A DNA stretch of 33,600 nt, from IMG/VR virus record IMGVR_UViG_3300027241_000017, positions 1-33,600 of that record; one strand, 5' to 3'. The notes below the pieces were generated by a model that ran no database searches, was not told the DNA's origin, and saw only the letters and a list, made by a program, of their open reading frames with translations. Source of the stretch: a virus. This document shows, in pieces, positions 13,846 to 33,238 of the stretch (position 1 is its first letter; every line of letters begins with the position of its first letter). Both the position numbers and the translations under genes were made by a program.

Positions 13846-15192
13846 ATGAAAAACCTAATGTTAGTGACAGTAACATCCGTACTTCTATCCGCCTGTGGTG
13901 GAGGTACTGAAATGCCCGAGTTCATTGAAGTTCCTTCTACTACAACTCCTCCCGCCCAAACACCCGTACAGATAGAGAGCGCAAAACTGCGCGAGCTAAT
14001 CATAGTCAGTGACCTCGTACTTCCTATGAGTGACGACTATAGTAACATTCCTCAAGATGTGATGAATCCTATAACCGAGGAAAAGGTTAAATTGGGTAAA
14101 TTATTGTTCCATGAAACTGCTATGACTCTTGGTGCTAGCGAAGACCATGAGGCAACATTTTCGTGCGCATCTTGTCACAACGCTAGATCCGGATTCAAGT
14201 CCGGTATTGCTCAAGGTGTGGGTGAAGGTGGTGTCGGTAATGGTTCGAACCGTGTTAATGTCTTGGGGGCTCTCGCTGACGTACAACCTCTCGCGTCTCC
14301 TACCGCAATGAACACTGCTTACCAAGAGGTGATGTTATGGAACGGTCAGTTCGGTAATGCGGTTGATGGTATTGTCAATATAGGTGTTGATGAGTCTATA
14401 CTATCTACTCCGAATACTCCTAAAGAGAATAACGCCCGACAGTGGTCTGGACTAGAAACACAAGCAGTCGCGGGTCTTGGTGTACATCGTCTAAACGTTG
14501 GTGATGATTCTCTGCTTACAACATTACCCGAGTACCAAGAACTTGTTATGGAAATAGGTGGAGATGACTTACTTGTCACTGCCGCACAATCTATTGCCGC
14601 ATTTGAACGTACTATCTTGTCCAATGAAGCACCATTCCAGAAATGGTTGCGTGGTGATGAGGATGCGTTGTCCGAGACTGAACTGAAGGGTGCTCAAGTG
14701 TTCTTTGGTAAAGGTGACTGTGCGGGATGTCACCAAGGGCCTGCTCTTAGTTCCCCACAATATGCTACTAAGGAACAGATGTTCATGGCGGTCGGTTTCA
14801 GTGACTTAGATGTGAATGATAATATAGCAAACGCAGATGCCATCAACGATGCGGTTCGTAAAGGTCGCGGTGGGTTTACTCAAGACGAGTTTGAAGACTA
14901 TCAATTCAAAATTCCACCACTATACAATCTGACAGATTCTAACTTTATGGGTCATGGTGCGTCGTTCGCGAGTGTACGTGAAGTTGTAGAGTATAAGAAC
15001 GCAGGTGTCGCCCAAGCGGATATTCCGGAAGGTAAACTAGACTATAGATTCCGTCCATTAGGATTGACTGCTGAAGAGATTGACCAATTGGTGAAATTCA
15101 TTGAAGTATCTCTGTATGATGATAATCTAAGTAGATATGTACCTACATCATTACCTAGTGGTCAGTGTGTAGAGAATCATCCTGATTGTTAA
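13846..15192 (+). CDS. Di-haem cytochrome c peroxidase family lipoprotein (CcpA/MauG-like)
   Basis: A 448-residue exported protein. Residues 1-17 are a lipoprotein signal with lipobox LSAC (Cys17); Gly at +2 predicts sorting to the outer membrane. Two c-type haem sites are visible: C107-A-S-C110-H111 and C292-A-G-C295-H296. The region FKIPPLYNLTDSNFMGHGASFASV near residues 365-388 matches the conserved FRTPSLRN...MHxGxF block of bacterial di-haem peroxidases. The family reduces hydrogen peroxide with electrons from cytochrome c, or, in MauG-type members, oxidises other substrates. Haem attachment would need the host Ccm system. The open frame runs back through tRNA-Ser; ATG 13846 is chosen because it gives a proper signal peptide. 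Such a gene is not expected in a T4-like phage and was probably taken from a host. Confidence 0.93.
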   Translation: MKNLMLVTVTSVLLSACGGGTEMPEFIEVPSTTTPPAQTPVQIESAKLRELIIVSDLVLPMSDDYSNIPQDVMNPITEEKVKLGKLLFHETAMTLGASEDHEATFSCASCHNARSGFKSGIAQGVGEGGVGNGSNRVNVLGALADVQPLASPTAMNTAYQEVMLWNGQFGNAVDGIVNIGVDESILSTPNTPKENNARQWSGLETQAVAGLGVHRLNVGDDSLLTTLPEYQELVMEIGGDDLLVTAAQSIAAFERTILSNEAPFQKWLRGDEDALSETELKGAQVFFGKGDCAGCHQGPALSSPQYATKEQMFMAVGFSDLDVNDNIANADAINDAVRKGRGGFTQDEFEDYQFKIPPLYNLTDSNFMGHGASFASVREVVEYKNAGVAQADIPEGKLDYRFRPLGLTAEEIDQLVKFIEVSLYDDNLSRYVPTSLPSGQCVENHPDC

Positions 15193-15237
15193 GATACGAA
15201 ACGTATATATAGTAGTCTAACCGAACCATTAAGATTC

Positions 15238-15313
15238 GGGGTTATAGCTCAGCTGGGAGAGCGCCTGCCTTGCACGCAGGAGGTCAACGGTTCGATCCCG
15301 TTTAACTCCACCA
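15238..15313 (+). tRNA. tRNA-Ala (UGC)
   Basis: Acceptor stem GGGGTTA/TAACTCC with one G-T pair, D-arm GCTCAGCTGGGAGAGC, anticodon stem CCTGC/GCAGG around CTTGCAC (anticodon TGC), T-loop GGTTCGATCCC and encoded CCA. A structured RNA begins directly after its CCA. Confidence 0.95.
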
Positions 15314-15496
15314 AAATCCCTAACGGGTACAGGACTAGTACTGTTAAGACAATGTGGAAACTGTTGAATCTCTCAATACGCGCATAGTTTAAATCTAAAT
15401 GCCGCAACAGTTTAGTGACCATGAAAGCTCACACCACATTTTACCGTCTAACTTATAAAAGTACATTCCACAGTCCTGTGCCCGTCGGGGACTTTT
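15314..15496 (+). ncRNA. Structured RNA joined to the 3' end of tRNA-Ala
   Basis: About 180 nt with no credible reading frame but nested complementary arms. The closing stem pairs 15317-15336 with 15472-15491 (ACGGGTACAGGACT with AGTCCTGTGCCCGT, one wobble, extended by TCCC/GGGA past one mismatch). Inside, GTAC pairs 15338-15341 with 15461-15464, GTT-AGAC near 15343-15350 pairs with GTCTAAC at 15446-15452, AATGTGG 15351-15357 pairs with CCACATT 15434-15440, and AAACTGTTG 15358-15366 pairs with CAACAGTTT 15405-15413. A small GTGA/TCAC hairpin (15415-15432) completes a three-way junction. The outer stem ends in CTTTTAT like a terminator. Trimming of the tRNA would set the 5' end. No known family is recognised. 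Confidence 0.7.
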
Positions 15497-15519: not shown

Positions 15520-15548
15520 TTGACATTAAAGAATACGCCTGTTATAAT
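15520..15548 (+). promoter_or_regulatory. Consensus sigma-70 promoter for the exonuclease gene
   Basis: TTGACA at 15520-15525, 17 bp, TATAAT at 15543-15548, 28 bp before the ATG. Confidence 0.85.
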
Positions 15549-33034: not shown

Positions 33035-33238
33035 ATGATTGAAGTTGGTGATGTTGTCTATTGTAACTGGGGTGCGATGCATCCGACCGAAGAACTTGCT
33101 GTTCTCAAGATCGACGGTGATCGTATGTGGTGTGAAGGTGGGTTTACTATGTTACTTGCCGACTTGCGTGATATGAATGAGAACTACCGCAGTCCTATCG
33201 GTGTCTACAAAATAGATACTAACAATGTATATGCTTGA
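33035..33238 (+). CDS. Small protein of unknown function, SH3-like
   Basis: A 67-residue protein. It reads as short beta strands (GDVVYCNWGA, EELAVLKIDGDRMWCEGG), an SH3-like barrel layout often seen in small phage proteins that bind nucleic acid or host factors. No specific family can be named. GAGAGA precedes the ATG and the promoter is a strong early type, so it is likely expressed soon after infection. Confidence 0.7.
   Translation: MIEVGDVVYCNWGAMHPTEELAVLKIDGDRMWCEGGFTMLLADLRDMNENYRSPIGVYKIDTNNVYA

Follow-up and report, generated by a model that had tools for sequence, protein, structure and literature searches.

RNAC and RNAD of phage T4 are late RNAs that have been checked by northern blot and have no known function (PMC9697503), and a review likewise gives their roles as unknown (PMC3014915). 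GOLLD and ROOL, structured phage RNAs often encoded near tRNAs, also have no known function (PMC12286853, PMC7567579) and form cages (PMC12286853). The most abundant transcript of phage ICP1 is predicted to be non-coding (PMC7567579). The 3′ external transcribed spacer of a bacterial tRNA transcript reportedly acts as an sRNA sponge (Lalaouna 2015). The packaging RNA of phi29 is a small phage RNA with paired ends, a junction and conserved loops.

The window analysed here, a 33,600-nt stretch of viral DNA (IMG/VR record IMGVR_UViG_3300027241_000017, positions 1 to 33,600), contains a structured RNA directly behind a tRNA-Ala. Its likeness to RNAC and RNAD lies in being a small RNA right behind a tRNA in a T4-type phage (rnaD, a stable RNA like rnaC, begins about 1 nt after tRNA-Arg) and in lateness, for which the new RNA offers a late-type promoter box only and no RNA data. 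The T4 pair is located behind a tRNA cluster, whereas the new RNA follows a single tRNA that has a late-type box to itself. GOLLD and ROOL are several hundred nt long (GOLLD more than 800 in many members) and are represented by Rfam models, whereas the new RNA measures approximately 145-190 nt across its family and has no Rfam match. Like the tRNA spacer, it would be cut from behind a tRNA and act in trans, a role that is inferred in its case; the spacer is reported to be much shorter. Paired ends, a junction and conserved loops are shared with the phi29 packaging RNA, but the head and terminase genes of this phage group are of T4 type.

No Rfam match was obtained for the RNA in the window at the gathering threshold or at E values up to 10, nor at gathering in eight relatives, and searches for 6S RNA, tmRNA and other Rfam families at curated scores found only tRNA. 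Permissive Rfam thresholds yielded chance matches and the tRNA tail only; a tmRNA match in one relative (L015) was the tRNA tail read as tmRNA and fell below the cut-off. A covariance model of the new RNA (R1, described below), run unfiltered on the tRNA region of T4, gave no match to rnaC or rnaD (best 6.0 bits, elsewhere), and it gave none in the whole T4 genome. No recognised description was found in the published literature searched. The RNA represents a real family for which no description was found: neither Rfam nor the literature searched contains its sequence, its fold or its apical loop. Its kind, a tRNA-linked late phage RNA, is already known from T4.

The reading we favor, as somewhat more likely than not (probability about 0.55), is that a group of marine T4-like phages encodes a conserved structured non-coding RNA that is probably made late, freed from a tRNA and active in trans through its apical loop. 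A tRNA-RNA precursor would be transcribed late from its own late-type promoter, the RNA forming its second half; the usual processing of the tRNA 3′ end after CCA would free the RNA; a rod-like helix, P1, would close both of its ends; and the RNA would present AUCUCUCAAnACGYGCAUGU...AUGCC in trans to a partner, for which a protein is likelier than an RNA. The features of the locus in the window are as follows.

15204..15211, + strand: T4-type late promoter box in variant form (TATATATA for TATAAATA), 26 nt upstream of tRNA-Ala
15238..15313, + strand: tRNA-Ala (UGC), CCA encoded; presumably the 5′ portion of the precursor
15317..15491, + strand: structured RNA from P1 base to P1 base, supported by fold, model match and covariation
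15317..15336, + strand: P1 5′ arm, 5 + 14 bp, from helix placement; two-sided changes in 16 of 20 P1 pairs
15338..15342, + strand: inner helix 5′ arm GUACU, 5 bp with 15460-15464; in the matching helix of the family, 4 of 5 pairs show two-sided changes
15358..15366, + strand: 5′ arm of apical helix P5, 9 bp with 15405-15413, from helix placement
15367..15404, + strand: conserved apical element AAUCUCUCAAUACGCGCAU...AUGCCG, with invariant core UCUCUC and GCAU/AUGC
15415..15432, + strand: extra hairpin GUGA...UCAC, which creates a three-way junction; the hairpin site varies between clades
15472..15491, + strand: P1 3′ arm, from helix placement, then CUUUU, a terminator-like end
15520..15548, + strand: sigma70-like promoter TTGACA-17-TATAAT of the exonuclease gene; a similar promoter is found in 28 of 28 sequences

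The structured element is 175 nt long and starts three bases after the tRNA-Ala end at 15313. The minimum free energy of 15314-15496 was −60.7 kcal/mol, against a mean of −35.6 for 200 dinucleotide shuffles, none of which was as good (z −6.55), and 28 homologues, each folded alone, gave z values from −2.3 to −9.0 (60 shuffles each). The outer helix comprises 14 bp (15323-15336/15472-15485) and a 5-bp extension (15317-15321/15487-15491); a 7-bp helix (15351-15357/15434-15440) and the stem of the small hairpin (15415-15418/15429-15432) were also placed. A preliminary description, made from the sequence alone, had proposed a structured RNA at 15314-15496, continuous with the tRNA-Ala 3′ end, with no ORF and of no known family, and had suggested a similar but different RNA to those of T4. 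These points held: the same arms were placed, the three-way junction included, and the T4 parallel proved apt, RNAC and RNAD being late, adjacent to tRNAs and unrelated by R1. It had also proposed an end like an intrinsic terminator; the 3′ end in the window (GGGGACUUUU) has four U only and makes a weak terminator. Among relatives this end varies from UUCUUA up to nine consecutive U, and several clades have a weak U-run behind P1, a point against the favored reading. The preliminary description had missed the late-type promoter, the invariant apical loop, the exchange of the tRNA and the separate downstream promoter.

Homologues were sought by a scan with the downstream exonuclease, which kept 80 loci from 147 relatives, many with a comparable structured spacer behind a tRNA-Ala, and by scans with the apical motif. 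The RNA was found in 54 marine T4-like phage contigs (8 and 42 from two motif-scan sets, L012-L014, and the window), representing 28 distinct sequences, positioned 3′ of a tRNA and 5′ of a PD-(D/E)XK exonuclease gene. The carriers are related by descent, so their counts are not independent. In addition to these contigs, Phage C48C1 (OQ984149) is the named carrier, detected by blastn of one relative's sequence (L092) against named phages; the same search with the tRNA-Ala and RNA of the window returned no site covering more than 35% of the query, those listed being the tRNA part, and R1 found no match in seven named phage genomes (best E 1.47). Among 30 whole records scanned with R1, many of them fragments, five contained the RNA; of the 25 lacking it, 24 had no match at E up to 1 and one (G021) had a 9.2-bit partial match. 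Two pattern matches without a tRNA end (L105, L109) and a contig whose RNA is identical to that of L015 (L047) were left out of the alignment. The sole match of one pattern scan of bacteria and archaea, a Sulfitobacter contig (L189), has no tRNA in 8 kb and was taken for chance.

R1 was derived from alignment A2, which holds 16 sequences and leaves out the clade of the window; the structure was supplied from L015 and the seed alignment was plain MAFFT. The model recovered the window at 28.3 bits (E 6.6e-5) and L012 at 20.1 bits (E 0.01), with 55, 71 and 93 bits for the L065, L075 and L092 clades. Since a degenerate second copy of the RNA in L011 and L019 scores 19.1 bits, near the value for L012, the score alone is thin for the L012 clade and genome position carries the weight there. 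Across the 28 distinct sequences (alignment A4), two-sided compensatory change was observed in 34 of 48 pairs, the covariation score was 0.464, whereas shuffling gave 0.202 and sliding the partners gave 0.123 or less, and 94.7% of cells were pairing. A4 was fitted to the model structure, so these counts lean toward pairing, and the inner helices of the window are only roughly aligned in it. The preliminary description would have been refuted by arms changing in related phages without compensating pairs; this test was passed. Covariation over 28 distinct homologues excludes a chance origin of the fold, and the homology and conserved pairing of the family are shown.

The degenerate copy comprises the RNA 3′ half (L011 3690-3889, likewise L019) and is located behind a truncated exonuclease start, together with an inserted unit carrying a promoter-like pair and a strong hairpin with a U-run; no Rfam or phage match was obtained.

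That the locus is instead a small peptide gene is suggested by C48C1, where a 31-aa CDS is annotated inside the RNA (OQ984149 59600-59695). The 28 sequences have no conserved frame in common, the frames and longest stop-free runs differ, and sequence change follows the base pairs. This alternative is all but ruled out, and the annotated CDS is probably no gene.

Exact TATAAATA, the late promoter of T4 and KVP40 (PMC2984593), is found upstream of the tRNA in 26 of the 28 distinct sequences, at a distance of 7-73 nt wherever the tRNA was called (all but L154); the window and L012 have TATATATA. Counting against the favored reading, one of the 54 contigs (L164) has no late-type box nearby, and another (L141) is cut. 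Marine cyanophages have a near-identical late box, S-PM2 using NATAAATA (PMC2984593). Over the 150 kb of C48C1 examined, TATAAATA occurred 23 times against 6.3 expected, in several cases ahead of structural genes, for instance those of the tail sheath, head-tail adaptor, tail tube and baseplate. A box of the form TATA[AT]ATA was present within 45 nt upstream of 23/25 RNA-linked tRNAs versus 6/102 other tRNAs, a comparison that ignores kinship, so that its Fisher value overstates certainty. All six boxes at the other tRNAs are TATATATA before tRNA-Asn and none is TATAAATA; that the box of the window is itself TATATATA, also found before tRNA-Asn in relatives, counts against the favored reading. 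Transcription of the RNA and its timing remain inferred, with no transcript data.

Downstream, a TTGACA/TATAAT-like pair matching 9 to 12 of 12 bases lies between the RNA and the exonuclease gene in 28/28 sequences, counted without a shuffled control. A cis-acting leader of the exonuclease gene, acting as riboswitch or attenuator, would be consistent with that gene always coming next (53/54 contigs, L177 being too short to tell). Against this, the sigma70-like promoter separates RNA from gene in every sequence, with start sites unmapped, and 25/30 whole records hold the exonuclease gene without the RNA. The leader explanation is very improbable; the position of the promoter argues that the RNA is probably its own unit and no riboswitch. 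The order of late promoter, tRNA, RNA, end, early promoter and exonuclease is likely, as inferred from sequence alone.

The upstream tRNA is tRNA-Ala in 49 of the 54 contigs and tRNA-Asp in three, indicating that the RNA is kept while the tRNA is exchanged; it was uncalled in L154 and cut off in L141. The tRNA body varies widely among carriers while the RNA persists. Just upstream of 3952 in L154 is a tRNA-Ala without some T-arm bases, uncalled by ARAGORN, and the RNA behind it is intact. In our reading, the tRNA would serve as a leader for processing and the RNA would be the product that is conserved; release by processing is inferred, and the earlier proposal that tRNA processing sets the 5′ end is unproven.

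A possible alternative is that the RNA is a 3′ element of the tRNA precursor which protects the tRNA or helps it mature, or which acts as an insulator between the late unit and the early exonuclease gene, and has no role in trans. Consistent with this, the RNA always lies between the tRNA and the next promoter-like pair, many clades have a terminator-like end, and tRNA and RNA are seemingly gained or lost jointly. A tRNA-Ala probe matched one of the 25 RNA-lacking records (G018, E 1.7e-4, 72% identity), and the probe is insensitive, having also missed an RNA-bearing record (G001). However, an insulator or protector requires a helix rather than a fixed UCUCUC/GCAU/AUGC loop, and to our knowledge no comparable element accompanies other tRNAs of carrier phages, for which the apical motif alone was searched.

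The favored reading of a trans-acting RNA rests on this loop, AUCUCUC..CGYGCAU..AUGCC, which is nearly invariant across homologues. UCUCUC and GCAU/AUGC are fixed and the surrounding helix varies; since the GCAU/AUGC helix and UCUCUC scarcely vary, the sequence itself is constrained beyond pairing. Discovery by motif and exonuclease misses motif-less forms, and the invariance is in part a product of that selection; one departure, UGCGCAU, is seen in the L012 clade, which came from the exonuclease scan. That the loop stays fixed on a varying helix suggests a binding site, an inference made without binding data, as are action in trans and the partner without partner data. With G-U pairs counted, both main forms of the CGYGC core are self-complementary, and RNA dimers formed through it are conceivable. 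Judged by eye only, a pseudoknot between the loop and GAGA of the 5′ inner loop is possible.

The loop might alternatively serve an antisense regulator, UCUCUCAA pairing with UUGAGAGA in the leaders of early phage genes and blocking their translation late. In favor of this, the fixed loop is left unpaired in the model, and UUGAGAGA occurs in 15/1131 ORF leaders of RNA-bearing phages (for example at 33035 in the window). It also occurs, however, in 5/885 leaders of RNA-lacking relatives, no significant excess (Fisher p 0.11); Shine-Dalgarno-like words are more enriched; and the other invariant loop half, CGYGCAU..AUGCC, is left unexplained. We consider this explanation unlikely.

Leaders of the UUGAGUUGAGAGAGA type precede several small genes (window 33035; OQ984149 106645 and 109373) in RNA-bearing and RNA-lacking relatives alike.

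A bolder form of the trans-acting reading, no more than possible, is a new class of late RNA, part of a ribonucleoprotein or a decoy, which would be freed from a tRNA precursor while late genes are active and whose invariant apical loop would bind a protein of phage or host, serving virion assembly or countering a late host defence. Co-occurrence did not single out a partner gene: the 28 C48C1 ORFs present in 3/3 RNA-bearing and 0/4 RNA-lacking contigs are too numerous, and the pattern is confounded by descent. The new family is tRNA-linked and late-type like RNAC and RNAD of unknown function, but its homologues are many, its covariation is strong and its loop is short and fixed. The loop offers exact mutants and a pull-down bait, and the role of tRNA-linked stable phage RNAs thereby becomes testable.

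Just upstream of tRNA-Ala, the window encodes a di-haem cytochrome c peroxidase (13846-15189; CCP_MauG, Pfam E 2.2e-20). The C48C1 homologue of this gene is present in 3/3 RNA-bearing and 0/4 RNA-lacking contigs compared.
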